Virus record (IMG/VR): IMGVR_UViG_3300031626_000004
Coordinates: 1 to 50,266 of that record
DNA: 50,266 bases
Origin: a virus
Reading direction: 5' to 3' (one strand)
The position numbers and the translations under genes were made by a program. This document shows positions 7,563-16,761 of this stretch, piece after piece (positions within the stretch are counted from its first letter, which is position 1; each line of letters begins with the position of its first letter). The notes under the pieces were generated by a model, which saw nothing but the letters and a program-made list of their open reading frames with translations, did no database searches and was not told where the DNA came from.

Positions 7563-7795
7563 GGCTCGTTCGATCTTCCAATTTTACTCTTGGCAAGCCG
7601 CGCGGGTTCCTTACTATAGCCGCGGATTTGTGTGACGTTATCTCGCTTCATGCTTTTGAGCAGCGATGCCGCTACATCAGGGGTTAGCCCAGCTAGCTCC
7701 CCCAGTTCCTTGGTTGCGTTAGCTAGGTTAGTCCACCCCTTCTTGTAATCACAGATAGACTCGATCATTTCATCGTGGGTTTTAGACTTAGCCAT
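7553..7795 (-). CDS. 80-aa basic protein, unknown
   Basis: The gene overlaps the 3' end of the SNF2 gene by 31 nt and is the second member of the two-gene minus-strand unit. The product is helical and basic, with a basic tail (LAKSKIGRSNEPKK). No domain is recognised; coupling suggests it may work with the helicase. Confidence 0.6.
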   Translation of the reverse strand: MAKSKTHDEMIESICDYKKGWTNLANATKELGELAGLTPDVAASLLKSMKRDNVTQIRGYSKEPARLAKSKIGRSNEPKK

Positions 7796-9237
7796 TCTCT
7801 TGCATCCTCTCCTAGAACTTTTGCACCGATGTCGATCTTGGTGCGTAATGCTTTAACGATATGTTCATCGATGCTGCCTTCGCAGATCAGGTCGATGTAT
7901 GTCACGTTGTTTTTCTGTCCGATCCTGTGGGCCCGATCCTCTGATTGGATGCGCGTCTCAAGATTGAAGTCGTTGGCATAGTATACCACGAGGTTAGCCT
8001 CGGTCAAAGTCAGACCGTAGCCCGCGGTGGCGGGATTGCCCACAAAATACTTTAGCGGATGATCAGGGTTCTGGAAGTTGAGCACCGCTGCGGCTCGATC
8101 ATCGTCGGATGTATCTCCGAAGTATGACACAGCGCAGCCCTTGCCGAACTTTTTGTTTAGCATGTCTGTCATGCCGATGATATCGTGGCGGAACCGAGAC
8201 CAGATGATTGCTTTGCCGTCATGCTCGTTGATGATCTCTTCGAGCGCCTCCATTCTTTTGGATGGAAAGTACAGCATGTCGCCGTCATCAGTCTTGAGAT
8301 GCCCGGACATGATCTGCTGGAGCCGAAGCATCTGCGTGATCACAGCGGGAGCCGTGGACATCTCGCCACTATCCAACAGGACCATGGCATGCCTGCGGAT
8401 CTGTTCATACATATCGAACTGTTCTTTGGTCATGCCAACGTAACGTGCGGTGTATATCTTGTCGGGGAGATCGAGGCAGTCCTTCTTGAGCACCCGAAAG
8501 GAAAACATGTCGATCCTTTTGGTTAGCTCGTCGAGGTTCTTGAACCCTACTATCTGTTGGAAGGCGGCTTGGCCCATGGTTTTGCGCTGCACTACAGCAT
8601 AGCGTCCCTGGAAAGCATAGTATGAGTCGTAACCCAAGAGCCCAGGGCGGAGGAACTCGCACTGCGAATAGATATCCATCGGGCTTTTTGTTACGGGGGA
8701 ACCTGTCAACAGTCTTCTGTACTTGAACTGGGCTGCTATTTTCATTAGAGCTTTAGTGCGTTTGGCCTTGTGGTTTTTGATTGTTGTTGATTCGTCTATT
8801 GCTATCATGCCCCCTGCGCCAAGCGCACGAGCCATCCAGTTCCCTGCCTTCTGTCCTTTGAGCGAGGAGAATGATTCTACGTTCATCACGAAGATGGTCA
8901 GCCCCTCGAACTTATCTTGGACCGAGCGCATTTCTTCTTGCTGTTTCTTATTTGGGCCTGACACCCAGCGAATCACCCGGTGCGGTATGTCGTCGGACAT
9001 GTGCTCGGGTATCTCTTTGGCTACCCAGTTGCGATACACGCCCTTGGGTGCGATGACCAAAGCGAAGTTGATCTCTCCTGCTTGGTACAGCATGCCCATG
9101 TTATCGATCAGGACCTTTGATTTCCCTGTGCCCATCTCCATGAAGAGCCCGAACTCAGTGCGGTCCCAACCATAATCTAGTGCATCTGTCTGGTGATCGA
9201 ATGGTTTATATTTATATTTGTAGTTGACATCCATCAT
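7765..9237 (-). CDS. SNF2-family DNA helicase/translocase
   Basis: This 490-aa protein has the full SNF2 motif set: Q-like motif (PFDHQTDAL, 12-20), Walker A MGTGKS (35-40), DEST Walker B (148-151, in AIDESTTIKNHKAKRT), motif III LLTGSPV (176-182), and in the C-terminal lobe GYGLTLTEAN and QSEDRAHRIGQ (motifs V and VI). SNF2 proteins use ATP to move along double-stranded DNA. In phages they are thought to aid replication or remove host proteins. GGAGG precedes the ATG; two Met codons are adjacent, so the start is 9237 or 9234. It is the only replication-type gene on the minus strand in this half, with weak divergent promoter elements upstream. Confidence 0.93.
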   Translation of the reverse strand: MMDVNYKYKYKPFDHQTDALDYGWDRTEFGLFMEMGTGKSKVLIDNMGMLYQAGEINFALVIAPKGVYRNWVAKEIPEHMSDDIPHRVIRWVSGPNKKQQEEMRSVQDKFEGLTIFVMNVESFSSLKGQKAGNWMARALGAGGMIAIDESTTIKNHKAKRTKALMKIAAQFKYRRLLTGSPVTKSPMDIYSQCEFLRPGLLGYDSYYAFQGRYAVVQRKTMGQAAFQQIVGFKNLDELTKRIDMFSFRVLKKDCLDLPDKIYTARYVGMTKEQFDMYEQIRRHAMVLLDSGEMSTAPAVITQMLRLQQIMSGHLKTDDGDMLYFPSKRMEALEEIINEHDGKAIIWSRFRHDIIGMTDMLNKKFGKGCAVSYFGDTSDDDRAAAVLNFQNPDHPLKYFVGNPATAGYGLTLTEANLVVYYANDFNLETRIQSEDRAHRIGQKNNVTYIDLICEGSIDEHIVKALRTKIDIGAKVLGEDAREWLSLKPTMK

Positions 9238-9310: not shown

Positions 9311-9871
9311 ATGAACGACATTTTTGAAGACATATTCGATGAGGCTGACGCGGTCAGTCGAGTTGACACAGGAACTGGAAAGCAACTCAGCCAACTGGTC
9401 CGCAATCTCCGCACTGTCGAGAACGATATCGAAGATGCAGAGACACATTTGAAATCACTGAAGCAAGAGAAACACAAGCTGTCTGTCGAGAACATCCCAG
9501 CCTTGATGGATGAGATGGGTGTAGAACGTTTGGATGTAGACGGCATGACCGTGGAGCGGAAGATGATTATCGCCGCGTCCATCCCTGTCGCCAACAAAGA
9601 TCAGGCGTTCGATTGGCTTAGGTCCAATGGTCTAGATGATATTATCAAGAACGATGTCACTGTGTCCTTTGGCAAGGGAGAAGACAACGTGGCGGGAGAT
9701 GTCATCGGCATCTTGCGTGACAAGGGATTCGATCCTAAGACCAAGACTCATGTTCACCCGTCCACGTTGAAGGCGTTTGTTAAAGAGCGCATCACTGACG
9801 GCAAACCAATCGACCTCGATCTGTTCGGGGCATTTATATCAAACACAGCAGTAATTAAGAGGAAAGCATAA
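9311..9871 (+). CDS. Coiled-coil phage protein, unknown function (186 aa)
   Basis: This is the first gene of the replication operon. Residues about 20-75 form a long coiled-coil (LSQLVRNLRTVENDIEDAET and the following LKSLKQEKHKL), followed by a compact alpha/beta C-terminal domain containing VERLDVDGMTVERKMIIAAS. Proteins of this type sit beside the SSB-like gene in many phages without assigned activity. The stop overlaps the ATG of the SSB-like gene by one base (TAATG), which suggests joint function in replication or recombination. Confidence 0.65.
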   Translation: MNDIFEDIFDEADAVSRVDTGTGKQLSQLVRNLRTVENDIEDAETHLKSLKQEKHKLSVENIPALMDEMGVERLDVDGMTVERKMIIAASIPVANKDQAFDWLRSNGLDDIIKNDVTVSFGKGEDNVAGDVIGILRDKGFDPKTKTHVHPSTLKAFVKERITDGKPIDLDLFGAFISNTAVIKRKA

Positions 9872-10665
9872 TGGCTAATCAAGTAGCAACAAAAAAGAAT
9901 GCAGAGTTAAGCACAGACATCATGGATGACATCCTTGAGTTTGCAGGCGAGGGTGCTGCCTTTGGCGCAGATGAAATGCAGATCCCGTTTGTTCGGGCAC
10001 TACAAGCGTTGTCCCCACAGCTTGGCAAGAAGAAGCCTGAGTACATCGAGGGTGCGGAGCAGGGAGATATGTTCAACACTGTGACTGGCGAAGTCTGGAA
10101 GGGCGATGACGGCGTGACTATCATACCGTGCTACCAGACCACCAAGTATCTTGAGTTCACACCTCGTGACCAAGGCGGCGGATTCCGCGGCGAGATCAAC
10201 CCTACTGATCCGATCCTTCAGCGCACCTCGCGCGTTGGGTCCAAGGAAATCCTTCCAACAGGCAACGAGTTGGTCAAGTCAGACCAGCACTACTGCTTGG
10301 TATTGGGTGGAGACGGCGCGTATCAGCCTGCTGTTATCGACATGAAGTCTACGCAGTTAAAGGTCAGCCGTCGTTGGAAGACCCAGATTGCAATGCAGAA
10401 GATCAAGAACCCGAAGACAGGGGCCATGGTTGTACCTCCGCTGTTCGCTACAGTGTGGAAGATCACCACTGTTGAAGAGAGCAATGACCAAGGCACATGG
10501 TTCACGCCTTCTGTCGAGAAGGTCGGTCTTGTAGGTAGCCGCGATCTTATGCTTGAAGCCAAAGCCTTCCGCGACAGTGTCGCTGCGGGCGAAGTGAAAG
10601 CTGCTTCAGAGGAGCGTGTCCCCACTGCCTCTTCTGTACAACAGGATGACGACATCCCGTTTTAA
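9871..10665 (+). CDS. Single-stranded DNA-binding-like protein with DDDIPF tail
   Basis: The 264-aa protein ends in QQDDDIPF, the same acidic tip that bacterial SSB uses to recruit partner enzymes. The body is beta-rich and basic (KSTQLKVSRRWKTQIAMQKI, about 159-178), compatible with an OB-fold that binds single-stranded DNA. Position between the operon head and the primase supports a role at the fork. Overall size is nearer to T7 gp2.5 than to bacterial SSB. I infer ssDNA binding from tail and context, not from a recognised OB signature. Confidence 0.7.
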   Translation: MANQVATKKNAELSTDIMDDILEFAGEGAAFGADEMQIPFVRALQALSPQLGKKKPEYIEGAEQGDMFNTVTGEVWKGDDGVTIIPCYQTTKYLEFTPRDQGGGFRGEINPTDPILQRTSRVGSKEILPTGNELVKSDQHYCLVLGGDGAYQPAVIDMKSTQLKVSRRWKTQIAMQKIKNPKTGAMVVPPLFATVWKITTVEESNDQGTWFTPSVEKVGLVGSRDLMLEAKAFRDSVAAGEVKAASEERVPTASSVQQDDDIPF

Positions 10666-10673
10666 GCAGCCTC

Positions 10674-10705
10674 GGGAGAGGCGCGGGTAACGTCTCTCCC
10701 TTTTT
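10674..10705 (+). terminator. Intrinsic terminator inside the replication operon
   Basis: GGGAGAG (10674-10680) pairs with CTCTCCC (10694-10700) and is followed by TTTTT (10701-10705). It lies between the SSB-like gene and the primase, so it may reduce primase expression relative to SSB. Confidence 0.65.
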
Positions 10706-10722
10706 CACAACAGGAGCAGTAC

Positions 10723-12246
10723 ATGACACAAGCAAAGAGATTGCTTGCAGTATTCGTTGGTGCAAAGGCTGCACACGGCACGACCACTGTCGGTCGCATT
10801 GGACGAAACGGCAAGGCAGAATCCAAGAGTATGATCGTTCGCTCTCCTTTAACCGAGGAGCTCGTTCAATCCCACATAGATGGGAAGCAGGGCGTTGGTG
10901 CGATCCCGATTAATGAAGAGAACATGTGCAAGTTTGCGGCGCTGGACATCGATGTCTATGACCTGAACCACAATGAACTCCAAGCTAAAATCCAGAAGCT
11001 GAAACTGCCGTTGATGCACTGCCGATCTAAGTCGGGCGGCGCTCACCTGTATCTGTTTCTAAAAGACTGGGCCCCCGCAGCCAACATCAGGGATTATTTG
11101 ACAGAGATGTCTATTGCTCTGGGCTTTAGCGGCTGCGAGATATTCCCGAAGCAAGACACGATCATCGCGGAGCGTGGAGACGTGGGCAACTTTATCAACA
11201 TGCCCTACTTCAACGCCGAGATGCCCCAGCGTTATTGCTTTAACTCACACACCGAGGCGCTTGAGTTAGACGAGTTCTTAGATGCGGTGGACAAGGCCCG
11301 CGTGTCTGAGTCCGACCTCGAGGGCTTTCGGTTTGCTGGGAAGCGCAAGTACTTCACCGATGGACCGCCCTGCCTTGAGCATCTGTTCGCGGATGGGCCA
11401 ATTGATACGCCACGCAATACATGCATGTACCAGTGCGGCATCTATGCCAAGCTGTCGGACCCCGACAACTGGAAGAGTAAGTTGGAAGAGTTCAACCGGA
11501 CGCTGTGCTCTGAGCCGCTGCCGTCTGTAGAGGTGATCAACCTGGGCAAGTCGCTTGACCGGAAAGACTTTGCGTACAAGTGCAAGGAAGAACCATTCAA
11601 GAGTTACTGCGACCCGACCCTCTGCGCGAGCAGGAAGTTTGGGATCAGCACTGATGCGCCTGACATGCCCTCGGTTGGAGGCTTGACGATCATGTTGTCC
11701 GAGCCGCGCGTGTACTTCATGGATGTCAACGGCGCGAGGATTCAGTTGTCCACTGAGCAGTTGCAGAATCAGATCCTGTGGCAGCGGGCATGCATGGAGC
11801 AGATGAACTTGATGCCTCCTACAGTCAAGCCTCAGAAGTGGCAGCAGATGGTCAACCAGTTGATGCAAGGCGCTACGGTTATCGAAGTGCCGGAGGAAGC
11901 CACGATCAAGGGCCAGTTCAAAGACCACCTCAAGTCCTATTGCACCAGCCACATCAGGGCTATGGCTCCTGAAGAGATGGAGATGAACAAACCGTGGACT
12001 GATGCTGGGGTAACCAAGTTCAAACTGGAAGGTTTGATAGAGTACCTGCACCACCGTAGGTTCAAGGTAGAGAACCGTGGGCAGTTGATCCAACTGATCA
12101 AGGACGTTGGCGGGGACCAAAGCCGAGAAAACATTAAGAAGTCCGACGGAAGAAGAACAACGCTTCGATGCTGGGCAGTCCCATCCTTTGAAGACGATCA
12201 CATTGAATTACCAATAAGGGAGATGAACGATGACATCCCATTCTAA
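10723..12246 (+). CDS. AEP-family DNA primase with SSB-like C-terminal tail
   Basis: The N-terminal domain carries archaeo-eukaryotic primase motifs: FAALDIDVYD (D75, D77), SKSGGAHLYLFL (H108) and CEIFPKQD (E139, D145). These are the metal-binding acidic and nucleotide-binding residues of AEP primase-polymerases, closest to the primase domain known from TOTE-type elements. Near residues 230-310 there is a run of Cys residues (CMYQCG, YKC, YCDPTLC) that could form a zinc or Fe-S site. The extreme C-terminus, EMNDDIPF, copies the tip of bacterial SSB. It has AGGAG before the ATG. It probably makes primers for PolA and the helicase downstream. Confidence 0.85.
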   Translation: MTQAKRLLAVFVGAKAAHGTTTVGRIGRNGKAESKSMIVRSPLTEELVQSHIDGKQGVGAIPINEENMCKFAALDIDVYDLNHNELQAKIQKLKLPLMHCRSKSGGAHLYLFLKDWAPAANIRDYLTEMSIALGFSGCEIFPKQDTIIAERGDVGNFINMPYFNAEMPQRYCFNSHTEALELDEFLDAVDKARVSESDLEGFRFAGKRKYFTDGPPCLEHLFADGPIDTPRNTCMYQCGIYAKLSDPDNWKSKLEEFNRTLCSEPLPSVEVINLGKSLDRKDFAYKCKEEPFKSYCDPTLCASRKFGISTDAPDMPSVGGLTIMLSEPRVYFMDVNGARIQLSTEQLQNQILWQRACMEQMNLMPPTVKPQKWQQMVNQLMQGATVIEVPEEATIKGQFKDHLKSYCTSHIRAMAPEEMEMNKPWTDAGVTKFKLEGLIEYLHHRRFKVENRGQLIQLIKDVGGDQSRENIKKSDGRRTTLRCWAVPSFEDDHIELPIREMNDDIPF

Positions 12247-12445
12247 TAGACTCCTGCGGGTAGGAGAAGTTGCGGACCTGTTGGGGGTATCCAAGTCGTA
12301 CGTCTACAAGTTGGCTCAAACAACCCCCGACTTCCCACTCCCTGTTGTACTGGGCAGCGAACACAGCAAGCGTTCGTCTAGCCGCTGGGTTCTGTCCGAG
12401 ATTGAGGATTGGGTGAGCAGCAGGCCGAGGGGGAAGGAGCTATGA
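12230..12445 (+). CDS. AlpA/excisionase-like HTH protein (71 aa)
   Basis: The sequence LLRVGEVADLLGVSKSYVYKL is a typical MerR/AlpA-class winged helix-turn-helix start, followed by LPVVLGSEHSKRSSSRWVLS and EIEDWV, the usual AlpA ending. Such proteins act as transcription regulators or excisionases. No integrase is present, so a regulatory role is more likely. The ATG lies within the last codons of the primase gene (17-nt overlap) and the stop overlaps the helicase start by 4 nt (ATGA). Confidence 0.75.
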   Translation: MTSHSNRLLRVGEVADLLGVSKSYVYKLAQTTPDFPLPVVLGSEHSKRSSSRWVLSEIEDWVSSRPRGKEL

Positions 12446-14001
12446 CTGCGCTCTACGATGGCTGGTCAGTGGGGATTGACAACTCACTTCTGATCTTGGG
12501 GCCCCCAGGCTGCGGCAAGACGCACCGTTTGATCCGAGAGATCAAGGCTGCACTTGCCAACGGCACACACCCTTCCCGCATCGGCGTCATTTCGTTTACC
12601 CGCAAGGCTATCGAAGAGATGGTTTCTCGTGCCTGCGCTGAGTTCAACCTGACACCCAAAGACTTTCCGCACATGCGGACGAGTCACTCGTTTGGGTTTA
12701 ACGGTCTGGGTCTGCAAAAGCAGGACGTTTTGAGCACCGAGGACTATGCTGATCTAGGCAGTAAGATAGGTCTGACCTTTGAGGGGGACGACAAAACCAG
12801 CATTGATGACGGTGTATCCATGCCCACCATCGGTGGATCGGGGTCCCAGTACCTCCAGCTAGAGCACCGCGCTCGGTATCGGATGGTTACACTGGAGCAA
12901 GAGTTCAACAAGGAGGGGAACAGGGATTTGTTCTACCCCAAGTTGGTCCAACTCCACGAGCAGATGAACGAGTACAAGTCGGTGATGGGCAAGTATGACT
13001 TCGTTGACATGATCGAGAAGTACATCGACATCGGGGATCCCCCTGGCTTGGACTATCTGTTTATTGACGAGGCTCAAGACTTCACGCCTTTGCAGTGGGA
13101 GATGGCGAAGAAGATTGCTGAACGGGCAGGCAAGGTGATCATTGCGGGCGACGACGATCAAGCCGTACACCGTTGGACCGGGGTTGAGGTTGATTTGTTT
13201 ATCCAATCCTCGAACCAAGTTGAGAGGCTCACTCAGTCCTACCGCATCCCAAGGTCTGTCCACCGTCTGGCTAACACCGTCTCACGGCGCATCACTGGGC
13301 GATTGGAGAAAGAGTTCCAGCCCCGTGAAGAAGAGGGCTTGGTTGATTACGTCTACCATCTGGAAGATATCCCCGTAAACGAGGGGTCATGGACCGTGAT
13401 GGCGCGAACAAACTATCAGGTTCGAGAGCTAGCCAAATGGTTTCGGGCCTCCGGCTTTAAGTTTTCCATGAAGGGCTATGCTAGCATATCAGAGAAGTTG
13501 GTCGGGAACATCCTAGCGTGGGAGGACCTGTGCCAAGACAAGACGATAGGATTGCAGCGGCTGCGCCAGTTGTACACTGGGTTGCCCAAGCAGGGGGAAG
13601 ACGCTGCTCTAAGGCGGGGTGCTACCAAACTGCTGGATGCGATCCATCCGGAGGCCGAGGTTGGAATGCAACAACTCCAATCGGATTACGGATTGCTAAA
13701 AGGGGCGGAGATATCTGCGTATAACGTACTCAGGGTCAGTGTTTCTGAGCGCAACTATATTGATGCGATCCAGCGTAGGGGCGAGGACCTTCTGTCACCG
13801 CCTCGGATCAAACTGTCCACGTTTCATGCGATGAAGGGCGGCGAGGATGACAACTGCATTGTATATACAGCGTCCACTAAGGCTTGCGTTGGGTCCAGAT
13901 ACCAAGAGGATGAGCACCGTGCGTTTTACGTTGGTGTTACCAGAGCCCGACACACGCTCTACATTTTACAAACCGATAACAAATACAGGTACACATTATG
14001 A
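12442..14001 (+). CDS. UvrD/Rep-like SF1 DNA helicase
   Basis: The start at 12442 has AAGGAG upstream and overlaps the HTH gene stop. The 519-aa protein shows all SF1A motifs: Walker A GPPGCGKT (20-27), motif Ia VISFTRKAIEEM, DEAQD Walker B (209-213), motif III AGDDDQAVHRW, motif IV SYRIP, motif V STFHAMKGGEDDNCIVY and motif VI VGVTRARHTLYIL. It unwinds DNA 3' to 5' with ATP. Compared with host UvrD (about 720 aa) it is compact, with reduced 1B and 2B insertions. It is embedded between primase and PolA, so it is likely the replicative helicase of the phage. Confidence 0.92.
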   Translation: MTALYDGWSVGIDNSLLILGPPGCGKTHRLIREIKAALANGTHPSRIGVISFTRKAIEEMVSRACAEFNLTPKDFPHMRTSHSFGFNGLGLQKQDVLSTEDYADLGSKIGLTFEGDDKTSIDDGVSMPTIGGSGSQYLQLEHRARYRMVTLEQEFNKEGNRDLFYPKLVQLHEQMNEYKSVMGKYDFVDMIEKYIDIGDPPGLDYLFIDEAQDFTPLQWEMAKKIAERAGKVIIAGDDDQAVHRWTGVEVDLFIQSSNQVERLTQSYRIPRSVHRLANTVSRRITGRLEKEFQPREEEGLVDYVYHLEDIPVNEGSWTVMARTNYQVRELAKWFRASGFKFSMKGYASISEKLVGNILAWEDLCQDKTIGLQRLRQLYTGLPKQGEDAALRRGATKLLDAIHPEAEVGMQQLQSDYGLLKGAEISAYNVLRVSVSERNYIDAIQRRGEDLLSPPRIKLSTFHAMKGGEDDNCIVYTASTKACVGSRYQEDEHRAFYVGVTRARHTLYILQTDNKYRYTL

Positions 14002-14529: not shown

Positions 14530-14848
14530 TGAAGTCTTAGACACAGCAAAAGAACTGATCAATGGATCGAGGGCCAAGGACTACGGGGATGCGTTCGAGA
14601 ACTTCTCTCGGATTGCAGTAGGCTGGAACGCCATCATCAAAGAGGCGATGATGACTCACGGGCATGTGACCGAGCGGCACATTGCGCTGATGATGGACTG
14701 GTTGAAGACGGCACGGCTGCTCAACGACCTCGACAAGGTAGACTCGTGGATCGACAAGTGTGGCTACAGTGCGTTGGGCTCAGAGTTCACGGATCGTGAG
14801 AACGACATCCAAAAGCGTATAGCTTTGCACCTAAAGAAAGATAATTGA
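14519..14848 (+). CDS. DUF6378-like phage protein (109 aa)
   Basis: The protein is a bundle of helices with the conserved blocks AKDYGDAFENFSRIAVGWNA, ALMMDWLKTARLL and WIDKCGYSAL. This pattern matches a widespread phage family of unknown activity (DUF6378 by memory). The mixed acidic helices resemble all-alpha NTP pyrophosphohydrolases, but I do not see their metal-binding motif. I use the ATG at 14519. It is coupled to PolA downstream through TGATG. Confidence 0.7.
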   Translation: MKRDEVLDTAKELINGSRAKDYGDAFENFSRIAVGWNAIIKEAMMTHGHVTERHIALMMDWLKTARLLNDLDKVDSWIDKCGYSALGSEFTDRENDIQKRIALHLKKDN

Positions 14849-16761
14849 TGTCAGAGAACCTATTCGGAAGCGATCTGCACCACCAGTTTAAAGGGGAGAT
14901 GGACATGATAGACTCGGACTGGAACATACCGCCGGAGTACCCAGACCTGACAGGCTATAAAGAAGTTGCTGTTGATCTGGAAACCAAGGACCCGAACATC
15001 AAGACGCTTGGCCCAGGCTGGTCTAGGAAAGACGGGCACATCATCGGGATCGCTGTCGCAGCGGGAGAGTACAAGGGGTACTTCCCTATCCGCCACGAGA
15101 ACGGGCACAACCTTGATCCAAGGATCACGTTGAAGTGGCTGAAGAAGCAGATGGCTGTGCCTGAGATGGATGTAATAATGCATAACGCAACCTACGATGC
15201 GGGTTGGATGCGGGCCGAGGGCGTCGAGATCAAGGGTCGGATGATCGACACCATGATTACAGGCGCTCTGGTTGACGAGAACCGCTGGTCCTTTGGCCTT
15301 GATGCGATGGCTCGGGACTATGCTGGGGTACGCAAAGACGAGAAGATGTTGAAGGCTGCGGCTGCGGCGTGGGGCATCGATCCCAAGGCAGAGATGTGGC
15401 AGTTACCCCCGATGTATGTTGGGGCCTACGCCGAACGCGATGCTGTGGCGACACTGAAACTCTGGCAGGCCCTGAAGATCCAATTGGATGAGCAGAAGCT
15501 GTGGGACATCTGGAACACTGAGACCAAACTAATCCCTTGCTTGCTGGACATGCGGAGCAAAGGGGTGCGCGTTGATCTGGACAAGGCTGATCGCAACAAG
15601 AAGTTAATCCGCAGCAAGTCTAAAGAGATGCGGCGTTTGATCGAGAAGGAAGCTGGGCTTGAGGTAGACATCTGGGCCTCTGCATCCATCGCTAAGATGT
15701 TTGACAAGCTGGGCCTTGAGTACCCAAGGACCGAGAGGGGTGCGCCCTCGTTCAACAAAGCGTATCTAAACAACCACCCGTCTGAGATATGCCAGAAGCT
15801 GGTTAAGCTGCGGGAGTTCGACAAGGCTGACAGCACGTTTATCGACAGCATCCTGCGGCACGAGCACAACGGGCGCATCCACACGGAGCTCCACTCCACT
15901 CGGAGGGACGAGGGCGGCACGGTCACGGGCAGATTCTCCTCCTCGAACCCCAATCTCCAGCAGATTCCGGCGCGGGACAAGGACATCAAGAAACTAATCC
16001 GCGGTCTTTTTATCCCAGAAGAGGGGTACAAGTGGGGATCGTTCGATTATTCTAGCCAAGAACCAAGATTACTCGTACACTTCGCCGCCAGCGTTGGGGA
16101 GATCCAAGGGCAGGATCTGCTCGCGGACATTGTCCACCAGTACAACACCGCTGATGTAGACCTCCACCAGATTGTCGCTGACCTAGCTGGGATCAAGCGC
16201 AAGGAAGCGAAGGCCGTGAACCTCGGGATTATGTACGGGATGGGTGTGGCAAAGCTAGCCGATCAACTGGGCGTCGATCCAGATGAGGCGAAGGGATTGC
16301 TGCAGCAGCACCGCGAGATGGTGCCGTTTGTTAAGGCACTGGCTGAGATGGCTTCTCGTAGGGCCGCAAACTCAGGGCAAATCCGGACGGTGTTAGGTCG
16401 TCTGTGCCGCTTCCACCTTTGGGAGCCCACTACGTTCGGGGCAGGCAAACCTTTGCCCCACGAGGAGGCGTTGAAGGAATACGGGGGAGTCAACGGCATG
16501 GGTATCCGCCGCGCCTTCACATACAAAGCACTCAACCGTTTGATCCAAGGATCGGCGGCGGACCAAACCAAGAAGGCTATGCTCGATTGTTACAGTGAGG
16601 GATATACTCCTATGCTAACGGTACATGACGAGCTATGCTTTAACATAGATAGCCCAGAGCAGACTGCCAGGATCAAGGAGATCATGGAGAACGGAGTCCA
16701 GCTAAAGGTTCCATCTAAAATTGACGTTGATATTCAAGATGATTGGGGAGAAATCGAATGA
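14848..16761 (+). CDS. Family A DNA polymerase with 3'-5' exonuclease
   Basis: The 637-aa enzyme has exonuclease motifs VAVDLET (D43, E45), NATYDAGWM and YAERDAVATLKLW, then polymerase motifs: RFSSSNPNLQQIP, motif A FDYSSQEPRL (D400), motif B RKEAKAVNLGIMYG and motif C TVHDELCF (D594). It replicates phage DNA. At the position equivalent to E. coli Pol I Phe762 (tuned for dideoxynucleotide and fidelity properties) it has Leu459. There is no 5'-3' exonuclease domain and no DnaJ-like insertion. The start at 14848 overlaps the previous stop. Confidence 0.96.
   Translation: MSENLFGSDLHHQFKGEMDMIDSDWNIPPEYPDLTGYKEVAVDLETKDPNIKTLGPGWSRKDGHIIGIAVAAGEYKGYFPIRHENGHNLDPRITLKWLKKQMAVPEMDVIMHNATYDAGWMRAEGVEIKGRMIDTMITGALVDENRWSFGLDAMARDYAGVRKDEKMLKAAAAAWGIDPKAEMWQLPPMYVGAYAERDAVATLKLWQALKIQLDEQKLWDIWNTETKLIPCLLDMRSKGVRVDLDKADRNKKLIRSKSKEMRRLIEKEAGLEVDIWASASIAKMFDKLGLEYPRTERGAPSFNKAYLNNHPSEICQKLVKLREFDKADSTFIDSILRHEHNGRIHTELHSTRRDEGGTVTGRFSSSNPNLQQIPARDKDIKKLIRGLFIPEEGYKWGSFDYSSQEPRLLVHFAASVGEIQGQDLLADIVHQYNTADVDLHQIVADLAGIKRKEAKAVNLGIMYGMGVAKLADQLGVDPDEAKGLLQQHREMVPFVKALAEMASRRAANSGQIRTVLGRLCRFHLWEPTTFGAGKPLPHEEALKEYGGVNGMGIRRAFTYKALNRLIQGSAADQTKKAMLDCYSEGYTPMLTVHDELCFNIDSPEQTARIKEIMENGVQLKVPSKIDVDIQDDWGEIE

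Follow-up and report, generated by a model that had tools for sequence, protein, structure and literature searches.

The C-termini of two unrelated replication proteins, an SSB-like protein and the AEP primase encoded next to it, share an SSB-type tip, and across their relatives the last residues of the two proteins change together. The DNA analysed here, referred to as the window, is a complete IMG/VR virus record of 50,266 bases from a marine phage. That the final residues of two unrelated proteins track each other is most simply read from the sequences as one pocket that accommodates both. We therefore consider it fairly probable that both tips dock alternately in the same pocket of a single phage-encoded replisome protein, with a hand-over from the primase to the SSB-like protein. 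A look-alike ending thereby becomes a testable claim, namely that two proteins from different families coevolve in their terminal residues because one site reads both.

Two proteins with a common C-terminal tip

The SSB-like protein ends in SSVQQDDDIPF and the primase in PIREMNDDIPF (Table 1). The preliminary description had reported both endings exactly; it had, however, missed the AlpA-like ORF that overlaps the primase tip. Judging from the sequences and the structural models, each protein has a folded core that leads into a flexible acidic tail, of which the last two to four residues form the putative docking tip. Among the 387 ORFs of at least 40 aa scanned in the window, these two are the only carriers of an acidic xPF end, and a third protein with the shared tip was not found (0 against 2.2 expected by shuffling).

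Table 1. Position of the two tipped proteins, their tails and tips, and neighbouring or candidate partner genes in the window
Feature	Position	Strand	Basis and remarks
SNF2-type helicase, conserved neighbour, no matching tip	7765–9237	-	PF00176, E=6e-22
DUF7307 / Pam3 gp33-like protein, conserved neighbour upstream of the SSB-like gene, no matching tip	9311–9871	+	PF23984, E=5e-30
SSB-like protein, 264 aa	9871–10665	+	PF23977 Pam3_Gp34, phrog_2402; Pfam E=7e-66
Flexible tail of the SSB-like protein, residues 241–264	10591–10662	+	Low pLDDT, no secondary structure
SSB-type tip DDDIPF of the SSB-like protein	10645–10662	+	Sequence; conserved or covarying in relatives
AEP primase, 507 aa	10723–12246	+	AEP-TOTE domain, Pfam E=5e-15; phrog_21866, PHROG E=5e-92
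Flexible acidic tail of the primase, residues ~489–507	12187–12243	+	pLDDT 64 and 59 in the last two blocks, no secondary structure
SSB-type tip NDDIPF of the primase	12226–12243	+	Sequence; [DE][IVP]PF in 149/149 close relatives
AlpA-like HTH ORF, ATG inside the primase tip	12230–12445	+	PF05930, E=1e-8
UvrD/Rep-like SF1 helicase, candidate receptor, without a tip of its own	12409–14001	+	PF00580
Family A DNA polymerase with 3'-5' exonuclease, candidate receptor, without a tip of its own	14845–16761	+	PF00476, PF01612

The SSB-like protein clearly belongs to the Pam3 gp34-like family (PF23977, phrog_2402; 222.8 bits, cut-off 27), which is annotated without a function. Canonical bacterial SSB (PF00436) is matched neither by this protein nor anywhere else in the record, and a PDB sequence search with the family returned nothing credible. 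The AF2 model has a pLDDT of 89 and comprises a putative OB-type core (residues ~36–240) and a tail that is disordered from about residue 241 (pLDDT ~55–60). Foldseek alone gave no significant match for this model. The best structural match is a fusion of the PhiC31 recombination directionality factor (RDF; 9teh_I, Z 8.5), followed by BRCA2-DSS1 (Z 6.8); the gp32 cores of T4 and RB69 resemble the model weakly (Z 6.5–6.6 over 156 residues, Foldseek E-values >0.01), and many SSBs rank below them. An OB-type ssDNA-binding role is likely on the strength of the model, and the assignment as an SSB draws on fold resemblance, gene context and the tail; it would suggest a function for a widespread, uncharacterised family. 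The model also indicates that the PhiC31 RDF and the PF23977 family may have a common fold. In Vibrio phage K300 (locus L170) the PF23977 protein ends in DIPAEM, and a separate annotated SSB (8116–8595) ends in DDGIPF.

The neighbouring protein is an AEP primase by its catalytic motifs and modelled fold: the DxD and SxGxH residues D75, D77, S104, G106 and H108 are invariant in 79 sequences. Its catalytic domain is like those of the CRISPR-associated Prim-Pol (CAPP) and AEP-TOTE primases by both sequence and fold, with matches to CAPP structures at E=4e-16 and 8e-11, respectively. These matches do not extend over the C-terminal region with its cysteines or over the tipped tail, and unlike its relatives in those systems the enzyme is found here in the context of phage replication. 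Four cysteines (C217, C287, C296 and C301), likewise invariant in the 79 sequences, lie after the AEP domain in a region for which no covering fold match was seen; their conservation suggests a metal or Fe-S site. AEP-TOTE is the best-matching domain of this primase, and another ORF of the phage (6814–7251) weakly resembles a further TOTE conflict system component, the S1/CSD-like domain 2 (E=3e-5, below the cut-off).

Conservation and covariation of the tips

In loci of close relatives the primase (41–100% identity) ends in [DE][IVP]PF in all 149 cases, and a PF tip is present on 145 of 146 SSB-like relatives, the one exception (L063) appearing frameshifted. By comparison, an end of the type [DE]x?[ILVMTSAP]PF occurs on only six of 9,021 other closed ORFs of at least 100 codons in the fetched loci, a background of ~0.05% per ORF, two of the six being the annotated SSB of L170 and the primase of L469, which had escaped the profile tally. 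A chance ending is rejected on these counts. The preliminary description had held that related primases with unrelated termini would reveal the match as fortuitous; such primases do exist, but in minor branches only, for instance in Nanhaivirus (R26L, R5C and Pan1) and HTVC023P, where the primase tip is missing and the SSB-like tip retained. The primase tail is thus dispensable in some lineages.

The primase tip overlaps the start of the AlpA-like gene by 17 nt, an arrangement conserved in 140 of the 149 relatives, and the tip could in principle be a by-product of that start. With its ATG at -17, the start imposes the codons xAT-GAx and hence N, D or Y followed by D or E just before the tip. 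However, substitutions at the third positions of the I/V-P-F codons give different AlpA N-termini (TSH, TYP, TSP, TSR or TFL) while I/V-P-F itself stays constant in the primase, and therefore selection acts on the primase tip rather than on the AlpA-like gene downstream. Moreover, the AlpA start has shifted to -14 in the L071 group and this overlap is absent from L075–L079, yet DVPF or EPPF is kept. An origin of the tip in the overlap, or in chance, is accordingly most improbable; as the cause of I/V-P-F the overlap is rejected, and the preceding D/E and N/D are partly forced by the ATG.

More distant relatives, drawn from named phages and viral contigs, gave 415 loci in which both proteins were located by profile. 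Where the tips depart from PF, those of the SSB-like protein and the primase agree within one phage: NY with NY (AANY/ETNY, SGNY/KPNY, DSNY/ESNY and SSNY/KHNY), SF with SF (ATSF/ERSF), SNF with SNF (ESNF/ESNF), DIM with DIM (EDIM/KDIM), IV with IV (QDIV/ENIV) and PY with PY (SPY/DPY), as well as AERF with SEKF. Even a one-residue extension is found on both tips, in an -FA/-FV pair (IPFA/PPFV). Some groups agree by class only, such as PY with HF or DF, and HF with IL. After clustering at 70%, the last two residues match in 62 of 104 pairs (29.6 expected), a number reached in none of 5000 shuffles. Restricting the comparison to the 45 pairs with a non-PF SSB-like tip leaves 14 matches against 1.4 expected (0/5000 shuffles), and clustering at 50% leaves 15 tip matches against 5.4.

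Relatedness was controlled for with disjoint phylogenetic pairs on a tree of the primase core. Both tips had changed in 19 of these pairs, only one in 14 and 13, respectively, and neither in 89 (Fisher P=8e-7). Within distance bins the association is weaker (P=0.03, 0.04 and 0.11), and part of the overall signal thus reflects general divergence. A binary contrast of PF and non-PF tips gave one concordant and one discordant phylogenetic pair. Where both tips had changed, the true partner matched better than the swapped one in 11 pairs against 2 (P=0.011), or 11 against 1 when three residues are considered (P=0.003). The C-termini of the UvrD-like helicase, the polymerase, DUF7307 and the SNF2 protein served as controls and had no two-residue match with either tip. 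The clearest case is provided by the near-sisters L336 and L332 (0.06 substitutions per site), in which the SSB-like protein ends in KSSF and STPY and the primase in DSF and DHF, respectively; the codons of these tails differ between the SSB-like and primase genes.

Matching tips might also arise passively, if recombination copied the tail from one gene to the other. The genes are adjacent and in the window their tips are similar at the DNA level (gacgacatcccgttt and gatgacatcccattc), but in matched non-PF pairs the two genes use different codons (for example AAC TAT versus AAT TAC; TCG TCA TTT versus GAT TCT TTT), and the sequences immediately before the tips differ as well. Tail copying is hardly credible in the light of these differences and is rejected. 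Overall, the covariation makes the pattern stronger than had been claimed from the window: together with its negative controls, it supports the proposal of a single partner that primase and SSB share or compete for, and the variant with a host SSB-binding protein as that partner is disfavoured by the differing tips.

A proposed shared receptor and the T7 precedent

The arrangement is reminiscent of bacteriophage T7, in which the SSB gp2.5 ends in GDF and the priming enzyme gp4 in TDF, the corresponding ends in T7 relatives being DF with DF, DY or EF. The gp4 tails bind basic patches of the T7 family A polymerase (PMC12593628), and the gp2.5 tail has been implicated in binding both the polymerase and the primase-helicase (PMC5686142). 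As in T7, the SSB-like protein and the priming enzyme have flexible, acidic tails whose aromatic tips match, and the window likewise encodes a family A polymerase. The differences lie in the proteins themselves: here priming falls to an AEP primase without a fused DnaB-type helicase, the SSB-like protein is from PF23977, and the tips (PF, NY, IV and others) covary strongly. Neither protein is a homologue of gp2.5 or gp4, their hits being to PF23977/phrog_2402 and AEP-TOTE/phrog_21866. By analogy, the tail pair would work like that of gp2.5 and gp4 in unrelated protein families, with binding predicted here, which would extend to phages with AEP primases the T7 replisome principle whereby SSB and primase-helicase dock on the polymerase through their tails.

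On this precedent we infer direct binding of both tails to one shared pocket on a hub, for which the family A DNA polymerase and the UvrD-like helicase encoded next to the primase are the likeliest candidates. Docking would recruit the hub both to template coated with SSB and to a newly made primer, and by way of the two tails the primase would give way to the SSB-like protein. The tips would covary because a pocket altered in one lineage would oblige both tails to adapt to it. The receptor is most likely phage-encoded, with the polymerase, the UvrD-like helicase and the SSB-like protein itself as candidates. A phage helicase had been suggested at the outset and is kept among the candidates; its closest relatives among named phages are those of phages that also carry this primase. 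However, a covariation scan of receptor columns in UvrD, PolA, DUF7307, SNF2 and the SSB-like and primase cores singled out neither helicase, polymerase nor any other protein (none significant, FWER P≥0.07).

The main rival to a polymerase or helicase hub is the SSB-like protein as its own receptor, whose tail would fold onto its DNA-binding groove, with the primase tail docking there by mimicry. This arrangement requires just the two covarying genes. Against it, the tail is disordered rather than docked in the model, and of the six proteins scanned the SSB-like core has the columns least tied to tip change (FWER P=0.49), which makes it rather unlikely. Alternatively, the tips might imitate the C-terminal tip of the host SSB (SSB-Ct) and dock on host PriA, RecQ, ExoI, Pol III chi or DnaG. 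The bacterial hexapeptide DDDIPF, described as a highly conserved tip of SSB that is bound by its partners (PMC5872125), is close to the tips of the window, and in both cases a hexapeptide of this type ends a flexible acidic tail. In bacteria, however, the tip sits on SSB, whereas here the primase is tipped as well and the relatives depart widely from DDIPF (NY, SF, IV, IM, EF and RF). A primase carrying an SSB-Ct tip was not found in the literature, the papers found having SSB-Ct bind to primase or to other partners. HTVC023P and HTVC027P were both isolated on Pelagibacter strain HTCC1062 (PMC9599517) and yet differ, with SVPF and no tip in the former and DIV and NIV in the latter; Acinetobacter and Klebsiella phages carry EF, EY and DM. 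Since phages of the same host differ and these other tips occur, a conserved host receptor for SSB-Ct is improbable, and alternate docking on a phage replisome protein is preferred.

Tips across the wider phage group

The docking code may be retunable across a large group of phages: one phage pocket would read both tips, the code would drift between lineages (PF, PY, NY, SF, IV, IM, EF and -FA), and the tail could move to unrelated priming or helicase proteins. This broader picture is possible and is put forward tentatively. The natural series of tips amounts to a ready-made set of specificity swaps, and matching tips predict interaction partners in uncultured marine phages. Pbunavirus-type phages combine a PF23977 protein with a RepB-type primase that lacks such an end. 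VapE-like helicases (L505:7714-9444, L507:35117-36784 and L510:21748-23514) end in GEDF, KDEF and SDAF, and the SSB-like proteins beside them in AEEF, AEEF and ADNF, respectively. These sequences suggest a possible transfer of the tip to an unrelated protein in Pbunavirus-type phages. A 102-codon ORF without a Pfam match (16332–16637 in both L411 and L412) ends in DDIDDEIPF; the phages that encode it have TEY on the SSB-like protein and TEF on the primase.
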